64,000 nt of DNA from Rhodococcus sp. CH91. GTDB taxonomy: Bacteria > Actinomycetota > Actinomycetes > Mycobacteriales > Mycobacteriaceae. Below the pieces are notes generated by a model. The model searched no databases, was not told where the DNA came from, and worked only from the letters and a program-made list of their open reading frames with translations. The position numbers were made by a program, and so were the translations under genes. Location: contig NZ_JAKFYR010000002.1 of the NCBI RefSeq assembly GCF_022554085.1, positions 186,001 through 250,000 of the forward strand, in the 5' to 3' direction. Positions 42,995 through 48,004 of this stretch are shown piece after piece (the first letter of the stretch is position 1; every line of letters begins with the position of its first letter).

Positions 42995-43372
42995 ATGCAG
43001 GGGATGAGGGGGCAGATGGGACACAACCGGGATATCGGCGCACGAGGAGAGGATCTCGCCGCAGAGTTTCTCGAATCGTCGGGAATGGTGGTACTCGAGC
43101 GGAACTGGCGCAGCCGCTACGGCGAGCTCGATATCGTCGCGCAGGACGGCGCGGCCGTCGTCTTCGTCGAGGTCAAGACACGCACCGGAACCGGCTACGG
43201 AACACCGGCCGAGGCGGTGACGCCGCTGAAAGCCGAGCGTATCCGCCGTCTGGCCGGATTGTGGCTGTCGGAGCAGTCCCGGCGCTGGTCGCGCATCCGC
43301 GTCGACGTGGTGACCGTGCTGCTCACACGCGGTCGCGCGCCCGAGATCACCCACCGCAGGCAGGTGCTCTGA
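42995..43372 (+). CDS. yraN: YraN/UPF0102 family endonuclease-like protein
   Basis: A 125-aa protein of the YraN family with a restriction-endonuclease-like fold. Its motif GELDIVAQDGAAVVFVEVKTR (E, D, ExK) lies near residues 39-59. Such proteins are thought to act on branched DNA or in transformation, but the role is unsettled. ATG codons at 42995, 43004 and 43016 are all in frame and the start is uncertain. The stop overlaps the yifB ATG, giving a yraN-yifB-dprA unit as in mycobacteria (Rv2898c-Rv2896c). Confidence 0.87.
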   Translation: MQGMRGQMGHNRDIGARGEDLAAEFLESSGMVVLERNWRSRYGELDIVAQDGAAVVFVEVKTRTGTGYGTPAEAVTPLKAERIRRLAGLWLSEQSRRWSRIRVDVVTVLLTRGRAPEITHRRQVL

Positions 43373-44304
43373 TGGCACTCGGGCGAGCGTGGTCGGTAGC
43401 GGTCTCCGGGATAGACGGCCAGGTGGTCGAGATCGAAGCGGACATCGGCGGGGGTCTTCCGGGTGTGAAAATGGTGGGACTGCCGGATACCGCCTTGCAG
43501 GAATCGCGCGACCGCGTACGGGCTGCGGTGGCGAATTCCGGTGCCAGATGGCCCGATTCGAAGGTAGTGCTGGCGTTGTCGCCGGCCACGCTCCCCAAGG
43601 TCGGAAGTGTCTACGATGCGGGACTGGCGTGTGCCGTGCTCAACGCTGCGAACGTCGTGCCACTGGACCTGCTCGAGAAGACGATCCTGCTCGGCGAACT
43701 CGCCCTCGACGGCAGGCTGCGTCCGGTGCGGGGAGTGCTCCCGGCGGTACTCGCGGCCAAGAACCACGGCTGGCAGAAGGTCGTGGTACCGACCGCCGCG
43801 ATGAGCGAAGCGGCCCTCGTGGAGGACATCGATGTCCACGGCGCCGACAATCTGGCAGATCTGGTGCGCTGGTTGCAGGGCGACGGTCCGCTGGATCGCC
43901 CGGACGGACACCGCTCCCCGCCGCGCCCGGTCCGTAGCGATCTCAGCGAAGTGGTGGGCCAGCACGAAGCGCGCCGCGCACTCGAGGTGGCCGCGGCCGG
44001 TGCCCACCACCTCATGCTGACCGGTCCGCCGGGAGTCGGGAAGACGATGCTCGCGCAACGCCTTCCGGGAATCCTCCCGGAACTGAGCGAAGCGCACGCC
44101 CTCGAGGTGACGGCGATCCATTCGGTGGCGGGCGCGTTGTCGGCGGATCGGCCGCTCGTGACCGAGCCGCCCTTCGTCGCGCCGCACCACACGGCCACGG
44201 TGAGTTCACTGATCGGCGGGGGCACCGGTATGGCGAAACCGGGAGCAGTGAGCCGGGCACACCGCGGCATCCTCTTTCTCGACGAGTCGGAGACTTGCGA
44301 ATGA
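43372..44304 (+). pseudogene. yifB: yifB/comM 5' fragment, truncated by insertion
   Basis: YifB/ComM is a hexameric AAA+ branch-migration helicase that promotes integration of incoming DNA during natural transformation. This fragment encodes the N-terminal Lon-protease-like fold (~1-170), Walker A GPPGVGKT at residues 218-225 and Walker B ILFLDE at 300-305. Immediately after Glu305 the sequence becomes foreign, and after five unrelated residues (SETCE) reaches TGA, so the product is 310 aa instead of about 502. Sensor 1, the arginine finger and the C-terminal Mg-chelatase-like part lie on the other side of the insertion. The start overlaps the yraN stop by one base. Confidence 0.93.
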
Positions 44305-44363
44305 CACCCTAGGACAACGGATTTCGGAGTATATCAGCTCGCGGAGCAAAGTTCATCCTTTGC

Positions 44364-44525
44364 TCAGACCCGCCTCTTAATCAGCCGAACTACCCTGTCG
44401 AGCGTGTGCGGATGAACCACCTTTCCAGGTACAGCCGACGCCTCCGTCGACCGCCGCACGTAGTCCGCCAGATCAAACTCCGGGGGAGTGGCCGACTTGT
44501 CCTGACGATCTTGGTGGCGCGGCAC
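44364..44525 (-). CDS. possible small protein at the element's left end (53 aa)
   Basis: A short frame on the minus strand from GTG 44525. It reads VPRHQDRQDKSATPPEFDLA and continues DYVRRSTEASAVPGKVVHPH, ending LIKRRV. Third codon positions are GC-rich, which suggests real coding in a region with no other gene. The layout (acidic residue-Leu-Ala-x-Tyr-Val-Arg, then a short C-terminal helix) recalls small proteins common in actinobacterial phages; no database match was made. There is no convincing ribosome site, so it could also be the 3' end of a larger gene lost by deletion. Confidence 0.35.
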   Translation of the reverse strand: MPRHQDRQDKSATPPEFDLADYVRRSTEASAVPGKVVHPHTLDRVVRLIKRRV

Positions 44526-44594
44526 TGCGGGGATGCTACGGCTATCAAGATCCCGGTGGGGGTGCCCGATGTCACACGTGGATAAGATCCGCTG

Positions 44595-45395
44595 GTGAGC
44601 ACAGGGGAGAACGGCAAGAACTGGCCGTCGCGGGGATACAAGACACTGAGTTGGATTAGCAGGGTGCTGCTGGTCCCTACGTTGATCTTTTCCCTGTTCT
44701 TTCTTGTGAGAGCTCTGATCACCAGCATCAGCAACTGGAGCGGTTGGACGGGCTCAGAGTGGTCTGCGCTAGGGGCGTGGGCTAGTGCGGCTGCCGCAGC
44801 GTTTCTGGCGAGCGTTTCGGTGTGGCAGACGCACCGAGCGAACAAGCAAGCGCGGGCAGCAGAAGCGCGGGCTGACCAAGAGGTTGAGAACGCAGAGAAG
44901 CGCCACGCGGAACAGATGGCTCATGCGACAAGAACTACGGATGCTGAACTAGAGCGGCTTAAGACCGAGGCAGAGTATCAGGCGGTACAAGAAATACTTC
45001 ATTCGATCGTTACAGTTGCGTCAGAGGTCGGTGCAATGGAAGACCTTATTCATACGTTCAAGAAAAAGCCCTCAGAAGTAACTACGGCACAACTCTTTGA
45101 AGGCAGGAAAAGTGTTGTATCGCACACCAACGTTGCAGCTATCAAGTTCATGATGGCACTGCCTCGTTTGGCGGATAAAGACTTGCTTGAACAGGCGTAC
45201 AACCTGCATGAGACGATGCACGCCGTGCTGAAGAGTTTTAATGGAACAGATCCCGATCAGCTAGCGCCGGACTGGGAGAAGGCTGCTGATAATCTTCGGC
45301 CGATGCTTGAAGCACTGCGAGACATGCAGTCATTTGCTATAGGTTACTTCTCGGTCTACAAGAGGATGCAGGAGGCGTCGAAGGACGCGGCCTAG
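44595..45395 (+). CDS. membrane-anchored coiled-coil protein of the element
   Basis: A 266-aa protein I cannot assign to a known family. Two transmembrane helices are predicted near residues 18-42 and 56-78. A coiled coil rich in Ala, Glu, Arg and Lys follows (~79-128), then a helical domain of about 135 residues (segments VQEILHSIVTVASEVGAMED and DMQSFAIGYFSVYKRM). Base composition and codon use (many A/T third positions) differ sharply from flanking genes, so it was acquired. Small two-helix membrane proteins with a cytoplasmic domain carried by phages often act in exclusion or defence, but that is only a possibility here. It converges on the yopX gene with a 4-bp overlap. Confidence 0.7.
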   Translation: MSTGENGKNWPSRGYKTLSWISRVLLVPTLIFSLFFLVRALITSISNWSGWTGSEWSALGAWASAAAAAFLASVSVWQTHRANKQARAAEARADQEVENAEKRHAEQMAHATRTTDAELERLKTEAEYQAVQEILHSIVTVASEVGAMEDLIHTFKKKPSEVTTAQLFEGRKSVVSHTNVAAIKFMMALPRLADKDLLEQAYNLHETMHAVLKSFNGTDPDQLAPDWEKAADNLRPMLEALRDMQSFAIGYFSVYKRMQEASKDAA

Positions 45396-45790
45396 CCTTG
45401 ATTGAGAAGTTCCGGATGCTCGTGGACGTTGCCTCTTACCTCAACGAAGTCGCAGCAGTCGTGTAAGGACTCAATAACATTCTCCCACTGATAGCACCAA
45501 CCACCCTCATCCCAAATTACTTCACCCCAAGTCTCATCGTGCGGGTTCCAGCAGATGTCACCTTCGTATAACTCATTGTTGTGAGCATCTGATAAACCCG
45601 TAAATTGCCCGACGGTTCTGTAGTCGACGAAGATAGAACGCCGCACCTTTCTACCCGTTCGAACTGTGCCGTACCAGATAATCCGCGCATCCTTGTTAGG
45701 CTTCATATCAAGCTGTCCATAGACCATCTCCGTTTTATTCCTCGTGCCTCTTACTCTTGATAGCCCTCGAAACTTAATCTCACGGATCAT
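45392..45790 (-). CDS. YopX family phage protein
   Basis: A 132-aa protein with the clear YopX pattern. It has REIKFRG at residues 3-9, MVYGQL at 22-27, TVGQFTGLSD at 59-68, ELYEGDI at 73-79, VIWDE near 91 and GNVHEHPELL at 120-129. YopX proteins are found in phages and prophages of Firmicutes and other bacteria; the function is unknown. It is the best evidence that the element derives from a phage. ATG 45790 overlaps the stop of the upstream gene (ATGA), so the two form a small operon. An in-frame extension to 45895 has no homology. Confidence 0.85.
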   Translation of the reverse strand: MIREIKFRGLSRVRGTRNKTEMVYGQLDMKPNKDARIIWYGTVRTGRKVRRSIFVDYRTVGQFTGLSDAHNNELYEGDICWNPHDETWGEVIWDEGGWCYQWENVIESLHDCCDFVEVRGNVHEHPELLNQG

Positions 45791-46122
45791 GACTCGCCTC
45801 CACGCCGCACAACTTCTGAATCCATGTGATTTCCTACTGCTACACGGAACTCTTTGGCGGGGTAGATGCCAGTCTTCTGTTCGGCTACAAGCCACGCGTC
45901 GGTGAAGATGTCCAGGAACTCAAAATAAGTCATCTGTTGAGGCGTATCGTCCTTGACCGTTTGGGCAGCTATATCAAACAGCTCGCGGTCGTACTGAAGG
46001 TTATTTTTTCTAGCCTCCACCTCTTGGCGGATTGCCCTTGAAATAATGTCCGGTAAGTCGTCACGGACGGCGTTGAACGCTTCGAGATCATCCTTGCGGA
46101 CGTAAATAGTTCGATTTGGCAC
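45787..46122 (-). CDS. ribbon-helix-helix-like small protein, probable regulator
   Basis: A 111-aa protein starting VPNRTIYVRKDDLEAFNAVR, then LPDIISRAIRQEVEARK. A short strand, a turn and two helices at the N-terminus suggest an Arc/MetJ/CopG-type ribbon-helix-helix DNA-binding domain. It is followed by a ~65-residue helical part (MTYFEFLDIFTDAWLVAEQK). No partner toxin is recognised, so an antitoxin role is not supported. GTG 46122 has a perfect AAGGAG 9 bp upstream, which fixes the start against a longer open frame to 46614 that runs into yifB. It probably controls itself and yopX through the AT-rich dyads just upstream. Confidence 0.65.
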   Translation of the reverse strand: MPNRTIYVRKDDLEAFNAVRDDLPDIISRAIRQEVEARKNNLQYDRELFDIAAQTVKDDTPQQMTYFEFLDIFTDAWLVAEQKTGIYPAKEFRVAVGNHMDSEVVRRGGES

Positions 46123-46145
46123 TGCTTGGTTCTCCTTATTTAATT

Positions 46146-46173
46146 GTATATGTATAAATATACGCATATATGC
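46146..46173 (-). promoter_or_regulatory. AT-rich promoter/operator region with dyads in the element
   Basis: GTATAT (46146) pairs with ATATAC (46158) across 6 bp. It is followed directly by the perfect palindrome GCATATATGC (46164-46173). The block is by far the most AT-rich spot in the window. It lies 24-51 bp upstream of the RHH-like gene and is a likely promoter and autoregulatory operator. An origin-like role is less likely given the lack of a replication gene. Confidence 0.5.
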
Positions 46174-46286
46174 ATATATTAACAATAGCATTTGTTGCAT
46201 TCTCAACTGGTTTTCCACACCCACTTCACCGTTTCCCCAGGTCATTGACGTTTTGTCAAAGATGTGACGTGGTGTTGGTGGAGGAA

Positions 46287-46880
46287 GTGGCCGAGATGCC
46301 GACGAAGACTCTCGAAGCGCTGCGTACCCCACTCGAGGACGGGGAGGTGCGCGTCGCGCGACGTGACGGGGTGGCGCGCTATCCCGCACGTTTCCAGCTG
46401 ATACTCGCCGCGAATCCGTGCCCGTGCGCGCCTCCGCGTGACGCCGACTGCATCTGTGCGCCGGCGGCGCGTCGACGCTATCTCGGCAGACTGTCCGGAC
46501 CGTTGCTCGACCGCGTCGACCTGCGGGTCCGGCTGCAGACGGTATCGACCAGTGCCCTGATGGGCGACGCGGGGGAGTGCACCGGCGACGTTCGTGCGCG
46601 TGTCGCGGCGGCACGGGCCTCGGCCGCCGAGCGGTGGGCGGCCTACGGATGGTCGACGAACGCGGAGGTCCCCGGCCCTGCTCTGCGCCAGAAGTTCCGG
46701 CTCCCGCCGGCGGCGTTGCGGCCGCTCGAGCGAGCTCTGCGCAAAGGCGCGGTCACGGCCAGGGGTGCGGATCGGGGACTGCGGGTCGCGTGGACGATAT
46801 GTGATCTCGACGGCGCGGTCTCGCCGTCGGAGGTGCATGTCGCCACCGCACTCGGTTTCCGGGACAGGGAGAGCGCATGA
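46287..46880 (+). pseudogene. yifB: yifB/comM 3' fragment
   Basis: The rest of YifB resumes at VAEMPTKTLEALRTPLEDGE and includes the AAA+ sensor region LILAANPCPCAPP, a Cys cluster (CPC, CIC), the SGPLLDRVDLRV arginine-finger region and the C-terminal Mg-chelatase-like helical domain (about 197 codons). GTG 46287, or ATG 46296 three codons later, could start a separate peptide. Without Walker A and B it cannot be an ATPase. The stop overlaps the dprA ATG (ATGA), so dprA may now depend on a promoter inside the element or on read-through. Confidence 0.92.
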
Positions 46881-48004
46881 GCGAGCCGGACGACCGTCGC
46901 CTGGCATGGGCGTATCTGTCCACGCTCGCACAGGGCGCGTCACGGTCGCTGTCCGCAGCGATCGCCGAACGCGGGGTGCTCGATGTGGCGGAATCCGTCC
47001 GCGCGGGCAGGTACGGCGGCGAACTCGCGTCGCGTCTCGCGGCGCGTGCCCACCTCGATACCGCTGCGTCCGATCTCGCGAGGGTGGCGCGCGCCGGCGG
47101 TCGCCTGGTGACGCCGGACGACGACGAATGGCCCGCCTGGCAGCTCCTCGCCTTCGACACTCTCGGCACGGCGACCGACACCGACGGCCCGCCGATCGCC
47201 TTGTGGGTCTGGGGTGAGCGCCGCCTCGACGAGCTCACCGAACGATCCGTGGGGATCGTGGGAACACGGGCCGCGAGCGGTTACGGCGAACACGTCACGA
47301 CCGAGATCGCGAGCGATCTCGCCTCCGACGGGTGGACGGTGATCTCGGGAGCGGCCTTCGGGGTGGATGCCGCGGCTCACCGGGCCGTGCTGGGCGTCGG
47401 TGGCGCCACCGTCGCCGTGCTCGCGTGCGGGGTCGATCGGGCATATCCGGCCGCACATGCCCGGTTGCTGCAGCGCATCGCCGAAACAGGCCTCGTGATC
47501 AGCGAATATCCTCCGGGAACGACTCCGGCCCGGTACCGATTCCTCGCCCGCAATCGTGTGATCGCGGCGCTCAGCGCGGGGATCGTGGTCGTCGAGGCCG
47601 GTTGGCGCAGCGGCGCCAGGAACACCGCAGCGTGGGCGCGTCGGCTGAGCCGGCCCGTCGGTGCCGTGCCCGGTCCGGTGACGTCGGCCGCGTCGCAGGG
47701 GTGTCATCGCATGATCCGGGAGGGTGAGGCCCGGCTCGTGGGCACCGCACGCGACGTGCTCGAGGAATGCGGACCCCTGCTCGGCTGCGAGGACGACCGC
47801 GATGCTCTGTTCCGGCGGGATCTGGACGGACTCTCGGGGGACATGACGGCGGTCTACGAAGCCCTTCCGGCTTCCGGAGTGTGCGAGCCGGCAGCCGTGG
47901 CCGAATCTGCGGGAGTGCCGGTCGACCGTGTGCGAGCGGCACTGCCGCTGCTCGAGCTCGAAGGGCTCGTGCTGCCCACCGACGAAGGCTGGCGGCGTGC
48001 GTGA
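46877..48004 (+). CDS. dprA: DNA-processing protein DprA
   Basis: DprA loads RecA on single-stranded DNA taken up in natural transformation. The 375-aa product has an N-terminal helical region, and the Rossmann-like core with SVGIVGTRAASGYGE near residues 122-136. It also has the block ISGAAFGVDAAAHRAVL and the arginine-rich stretch RYRFLARNRVIAALS. A C-terminal winged helix (AVYEALPASGVCEPAAVAES) is present. It is intact although the adjacent comM gene is split. It converges on the ClC gene with 13 bp between stops. Confidence 0.93.
   Translation: MSEPDDRRLAWAYLSTLAQGASRSLSAAIAERGVLDVAESVRAGRYGGELASRLAARAHLDTAASDLARVARAGGRLVTPDDDEWPAWQLLAFDTLGTATDTDGPPIALWVWGERRLDELTERSVGIVGTRAASGYGEHVTTEIASDLASDGWTVISGAAFGVDAAAHRAVLGVGGATVAVLACGVDRAYPAAHARLLQRIAETGLVISEYPPGTTPARYRFLARNRVIAALSAGIVVVEAGWRSGARNTAAWARRLSRPVGAVPGPVTSAASQGCHRMIREGEARLVGTARDVLEECGPLLGCEDDRDALFRRDLDGLSGDMTAVYEALPASGVCEPAAVAESAGVPVDRVRAALPLLELEGLVLPTDEGWRRA

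Follow-up and report, generated by a model that had tools for sequence, protein, structure and literature searches.

The window, a stretch of 64,000 nucleotides from Rhodococcus sp. CH91, contains the gene yifB (comM) interrupted by an insert of 2,000 bp. With a probability of about one half, this insert would be an integrase-less mini-element bounded by attachment (att) sites, belonging to a phage lineage in which codon 305 of yifB serves the large serine integrases as bacterial attachment site (attB). The insert stands at the very codon and dinucleotide used by integrase-bearing elements in related genomes. An interruption of yifB/comM is in itself expected, since publications already document the gene as a hotspot for large serine integrases. 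It is described as an integrase target by Durrant et al. 2022 (PMC10083194), whose target gene is equated with yifB/comM by our own reading, and by Croucher et al. 2016 (PMC4774983), who present insertions into the comM of several genera together with the idea that transformation is thereby blocked. Less expected is a 2-kb recombinase-free passenger in yifB, with a right end that is found only on other recombinase-free units.

Interruption of yifB and extent of the insert

The yifB frame is open from its start to the glutamate codon E305 (44284-44286), continues for five sense codons (SETCE) and reaches a stop within the insert. The protein is cut just after the LFLDE motif, which we take to be its Walker B motif, and is presumably inactive; a second yifB was not found when the genome of the window was searched with the locus. 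When positions 44285 and 46286 are joined in the analysis script, as a reconstruction of the empty site, a YifB of 502 amino acids (aa) is obtained that aligns without gaps, at 74-92% identity, with the YifB of all eight loci chosen for comparison, and 2,000 bp is thus the correct excision length. A previous reading of this DNA from the letters alone, hereafter the sequence-only reading, had described foreign DNA with exactly these limits, the rejoining of yifB upon its removal and an intact dprA next door, all of which is borne out; the dprA frame is open and encodes a DNA_processg_A domain. Its suggestion that the insert may shut down transformation goes beyond these findings, YifB being broken in an organism that may or may not be transformable.

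The guanine-cytosine (GC) content of the insert is 52.1%, against 67.5% and 71.1% in the measured flanks. This lower value, in an insert seen at the level of the assembly, could point to an assembly or contamination artefact. Such an origin is scarcely credible, given that the element is present as a single copy inside a 660-kb contig of a genome tabulated as 100% complete and 0.04% contaminated, and that its junctions agree with those in other genomes.

Other insertions and integrases at yifB

A locus search in 61 genomes gave matches in 57, of which 48 (counted by hand) have both yifB halves on one contig. The empty sites that the sequence-only reading had proposed to look for in relatives are the rule, with yifB uninterrupted at codon 305 in 44 of the 48 genomes. 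The gene is split there in the remaining four, namely by 2 kb in the window's genome (G000), by 59 kb in a congener (G004), by about 79 kb in a genome of another genus of the same family (G033) and, in a genome of another family of the same order (G039), with halves that lie about 124 kb apart. Both junctions were read in these four genomes, and the interior of the G033 and G039 insertions was read in part.

The large serine integrases of G004 (489 aa) and G033 (492 aa), which are 56% identical, directly adjoin the yifB 3' half, and in G039 an open reading frame (ORF) for a 565-aa serine recombinase with Resolvase and zinc-ribbon domains adjoins the 5' half, at the left attachment site (attL). 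A protein search with the G004 integrase matched 46 of 201 genomes at an expectation value (E) of up to 1e-30; integrase loci were returned for ten genomes, and seven of these were examined for an adjoining yifB. The three top scores (G004 itself, G033 with 56% and G108 with 54% identity) all adjoin the yifB 3' half, and in G108, where the 3' junction alone was read, codon and core agree with the others. The integrases of G080 and of Prescottella defluvii Ca11 (G128) do not adjoin yifB, and the match in G471 has 55% identity over residues 11-207.

Two genomes counted among the 44 (G027 and G060) carry an integrase elsewhere in yifB or at its edge. These large serine integrases (G027:C4 at about 153981 and G060:C9 at about 258345) mark a second integration spot in the gene, near codons 82-102. 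At the G039 locus (C1, 3845-3970 kb), the yifB halves about 124 kb apart are accompanied by inverted attachment arms of about 12 bp.

The ends as probable attachment-site halves

The two junctions of the insert have only the dinucleotide GA in common, which in G004, G033 and G039 is the centre of mirrored arms. Half-sites in G004 and G033 read GGTGTC at -23 to -18, with the complement at +18 to +23 from GA, and GGGTGT is found on both arms in G039. The left half-site of the insert is GGTGTC exactly, in the register of G004 and G033, and on the right arm GATGTG, with 4 of 6 positions alike, stands at the mirror position. Moreover, its left arm is identical to that of G004 at 24 of 35 bases, a value equalled by none of 100000 shuffles. 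Such an arrangement resembles the serine-integrase attachment site of phages (attP), described as a central dinucleotide with half-sites of about 25 bp (PMC3783163). The insert is therefore very probably bounded by serine-integrase attachment halves, with the integrase itself absent.

AbaR islands in Acinetobacter comM are known to arise by transposition with Tn7-like proteins and target duplication, and the sequence-only reading had seen the insert as an unrelated element that found the same target independently. A transposon-like island converging on comM would agree with the interruption of the same gene and with comM being a recurrent target in other phyla, as reported by Croucher et al. 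(PMC4774983). Notwithstanding, neither a transposase, among the ORFs scanned, nor a target duplication is seen in the insert, and a repeat search of the flanks gave no meaningful terminal inverted repeats and no duplication, short or longer, beyond the GA core. The match of the left end with a prophage attachment arm (G004), at the codon used by prophage integrases, contradicts this origin, which is very improbable, and the proposed analogy is not supported.

Absence of an integrase

Profile searches of the window's genome returned no match to PF07508 (0/1) and none to PF00239 (0/1), while the latter matched 10 of 14 members of a control set. Within the insert no large serine integrase of its own was found, and a six-frame comparison gave no traces of five integrases (best E 0.25; other pseudogenes were not searched for frame by frame). 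No transposase was present among the ORFs scanned against Pfam, PHROGs and NCBIfam. In a genome with no serine recombinase detected, the insert is not expected to excise spontaneously, and a polymerase chain reaction for excised yifB should be negative. This also bears on the idea of a regulated switch of the active-lysogeny type, in which excision would restore YifB on demand: precise excision would indeed restore the frame, but a superinfecting helper would be required, and such a switch is very improbable.

Genes of the insert and their relatives

Table 1. Features of the interrupted yifB locus, in window positions.
Feature	Position	Strand	Basis and remarks
yifB/comM 5' half	43372..44285	+	ChlI domain and Mg_chelatase up to LFLDE motif; Pfam, joined-frame alignment
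GA crossover dinucleotide, left junction (attL)	44284..44285	+	centre of mirrored arms in G004, G033, G039
Inserted element	44286..46285	.	2,000 bp, 52.1% GC; single copy in genome
Left attachment arm	44286..44320	+	half-site GACACC 44303-44308, +18 to +23 from core
Small ORF, 53 aa	44364..44525	-	reads towards attL; relatives on attL side in G004 and G033 yifB prophages and P. defluvii unit Y
ORF A, 266 aa, predicted membrane protein	44595..45395	+	charged, coiled-coil-like tail (by eye)
ORF B, 132 aa, YopX family	45392..45790	-	Pfam PF09643 E 1.9e-15; phrog_98 E 2.9e-22
ORF C, 111 aa	45787..46122	-	GTG start chosen by eye; ATGA overlap with ORF B
AT-rich palindrome	46157..46180	.	upstream of ORF C; possible operator; repeat search
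Right attachment arm	46224..46283	+	conserved with two P. defluvii copies; palindrome TTGACGTTTTGTCAA 46245-46259, GATGTG 46261-46266 at mirror position
GA crossover dinucleotide, right junction (attR)	46284..46285	+	junction comparison
yifB/comM 3' half	46286..46880	+	rest of Mg_chelatase, then C-terminal domain Mg_chelatase_C; Pfam, alignment
dprA	46877..48004	+	open reading frame, 375 aa, DNA_processg_A domain (Pfam)

The YopX-family protein is the only one of the four ORF products of the insert (Table 1) that reached a curated cut-off. ORF A and ORF C gave only weak matches in Pfam, PHROGs and NCBIfam, among them a holin family for ORF A (E 0.001), and the start of ORF C, for which there was no family match, is presumably ribbon-helix-helix-like. 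Structural, lysis and replication genes were not recognised among the scanned ORFs, and the insert does not qualify as a complete prophage. With regard to defence systems, PADLOC gave nothing for the proteins of the window.

The DNA of the element matched 7 of 401 genomes of the family, with strong sharing of the insert, besides the window, in G128 only. G004 and G114 matched at the left end, on its yifB side, and the matches in G281, G072 and G423 are short and weak. A profile of the small ORF matched 10 of the 401 genomes at E up to 0.01, kinship being shown for part of these matches only. The relative in G004 lies 92 bp from the core and reads towards attL as in the insert, and that in G033 lies 1.2 kb from the core in the same orientation. 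A weaker relative in G371 is found near a serine integrase, and a similar frame in G154 is broken by a stop. The ORF A profile matched 17 of the 401 genomes, and its matches in G004 and G033 sit inside the yifB insertions; for its relatives the analysis relied on compact loci in place of 11 wider regions. The G004 prophage also has a YopX gene (PF09643, E 8e-18). These relatives place the left end and some of the cargo in the yifB phage lineage. Neither phages nor plasmids yielded a closely similar DNA copy of the element, and the proteins of the small ORF and ORF A were likewise not found in either set nor confirmed in viral contigs.

A right end shared with units in Prescottella defluvii

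The last 60 bp of the insert, in which the TTGACGTTTTGTCAA palindrome precedes the arm, differ from the right ends of G004 and G033. The same right end is present in two tandem copies in P. defluvii Ca11, between response-regulator and histidine-kinase genes, where it closes two units designated X and Y. Unit Y measures 2,181 bp from core to core and comprises a left arm, the small ORF, a further gene, a relative of ORF A and the right arm. The succession of left arm, small ORF, ORF A and right arm is thus common to unit Y and the insert. Between the two, the small ORF shows non-synonymous and synonymous divergences (dN and dS) of 0.067 and 0.995 over 21 codons; for the beginning of ORF A, the non-synonymous and synonymous proportions (pN and pS) are 0.17 and 0.75 over 50 codons. 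Both stretches look selectively conserved.

Arrival as a unit or decay in place

Two histories would lead to the present insert. In the first, which is given an even chance, it arrived in yifB as a small unit: the element would have entered the gene as a small circle when a related prophage supplied the integrase in trans for recombination of attP with attB, and would now be stranded for lack of an integrase, its cargo (ORF A, YopX and ORF C) perhaps acting in phage-phage or phage-host conflict. Arrival as a unit is favoured by a right end seen on integrase-less units alone, by a compact layout in common with unit Y, and by the conservation of the small ORF and of the first part of ORF A.

In the second history, a full serine-integrase prophage at yifB lost its interior and integrase in place and left 2 kb between attL and the right attachment site (attR). 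Prophages commonly suffer internal deletions, and the 59-kb G004 prophage, which splits yifB at this codon too, contains the left arm as well as the small ORF, ORF A and YopX families. The sequence-only reading had itself named a larger prophage carried by relatives as a finding that would count against it, and this applies in part, since 1 of 17 congeners (G004) shares the left end and gene families, whereas the right end differs. In addition, only one such small element at yifB was found here. This decay is a close contender, at slightly less than even odds. It does not readily account for a right end that is not of the G004 or G033 type and whose only other copies found sit on units with no linked integrase, at a different locus in a different genus, nor for four ORFs that are all open and packed between two arms with no trace of the five integrases compared.

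Several observations weigh against the element as proposed, bounded by attachment sites and arriving as a small, helper-dependent unit. The circle, its excision and its mobilisation in trans are inferred steps, none of them observed. The insert has its gene families in common with the full G004 prophage, as would be expected equally from decay in place, and the selection seen in the small ORF and ORF A could have acted in full-size ancestors. With regard to the ends, the right half-site GATGTG matches GGTGTC at only 4 of 6 positions, and the right arm of G108 is likewise out of exact register. Copies of the right end number three, in two genomes, and of the two units in P. defluvii, Y is the only one with both ends: X ends on the right as Y does, has no recognised left arm and carries a broken small ORF. 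The single recognisable end of unit X slightly lowers the odds of a small unit and raises those of decay. Furthermore, the P. defluvii units lie outside yifB, which is intact in that genome, and their half-sites (GGGGTG on the left, GATGTG and GAAGTG on the right) are not the GGTGTC of the prophages; because of this difference, the use of one integrase by these units and by the yifB prophages is not established.

A broader proposal is that of a family of integrase-less cassettes of about 2 kb in Mycobacteriales that parasitise the serine integrases of prophages, with a phage-type left arm, a private TTGAC-N5-GTCAA right arm, a conserved attL-side protein of 53-68 aa, swappable phage-conflict cargo and tandem chaining. 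Such a family is a speculative suggestion and rather unlikely. The attL-side protein is perhaps the directionality factor by which a borrowed integrase could excise the element, and if the insert does move with such an integrase, this small conserved protein would be the immediate candidate for that role. The insert would in that case represent a helper-dependent element of minimal size, on which the choice of excision by serine integrases could be studied in a natural setting.

Relation to known elements

Staphylococcal cassette chromosome (SCC) elements that lack ccr are att-site islands of serine recombinases that stand in tandem with others and, like the insert, have no recombinase of their own, and phage satellites such as phage-inducible chromosomal islands (PICI) and PICI-like elements (PLE) carry their own integrase together with packaging-interference genes. 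The insert resembles these satellites in being small, phage-associated and, if our reading is right, helper-dependent, but neither an own integrase nor packaging-interference genes were found in it. From the serine-integrase prophages of yifB/comM, with which it has the target gene in common and, within the order, also the codon, the GA core, the register of the left arm and the attL-side gene, it differs in its size (2 kb against tens of kb), in the lack of an integrase and of any recognised structural gene, and in its right arm.

Islands with attL and attR and no integrase are termed cis-mobilizable elements (CIMEs) and are described as decayed integrative and conjugative elements (ICEs) or integrative and mobilizable elements (IMEs) (PMC5704250). 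The insert has attL and attR, their function being predicted from sequence, and lacks integrase and transfer genes, and the related right ends in tandem in P. defluvii are compatible with accretion. It is, on the other hand, very small, and its contents look phage-like (YopX); its large relatives were annotated in part. The ssrA islands of Dehalococcoides (PMC3146451) likewise combine serine-recombinase att sites with the lack of a recombinase and stand in tandem with further islands. They differ in having a CcrB-like integrase family and another target, while the genome that carries the insert gave no serine recombinase. A limited literature check turned up no description of the 2,000-bp element. 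Integrase-less att islands as such being known already, the more novel part is a possible family of helper-dependent mini-units. The insert also offers a codon-exact actinobacterial case for asking what makes competence genes a target of mobile elements.

Distribution of the right end and the Prescottella locus

A right-end profile built on G000 and G128 gave matches at E up to 0.1 in 27 of the 401 family genomes, strong only in these two genomes themselves. The next match, in G021 (2.9e-4), was judged a chance one from its local sequence, which was also inspected for three (G360, G075 and G316) of the further 24 weak matches. By exact pattern, the right end was found in no viral contig and in one stretch of the GTDB collection, from P. 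defluvii; it was not found in the prophage pieces of G004 (searched whole) or of G033 and G039 (ends only). A sequence similar to part of the insert's right-end palindrome, ACATCTTTGACA, stands in two close copies at G316:C1:762995, and we take these copies to be possibly the end of an insertion sequence.

A possible third unit upstream of unit X received no support from the right-end profile. Likewise, the P. defluvii locus was considered as a dedicated cassette array and rejected as such: 8 of 13 congeners have inserts there, in which blastn below E 0.05 finds none of these ends. For that reason, the gap between the response-regulator and histidine-kinase genes appears to be a generally plastic spot in this genus rather than a dedicated array. 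Across 14 genomes of the genus, this gap between convergent genes holds inserts of 0.8-6.2 kb in nine and is nearly empty in five. PF07508 matched three times in the P. defluvii genome (C53 twice, C22), never on the contig with the units. On C53 (9287-12493 of the fetched region), two divergent large serine recombinase genes stand side by side in a prophage-like region, a pair that resembles ccrA/ccrB by arrangement only.

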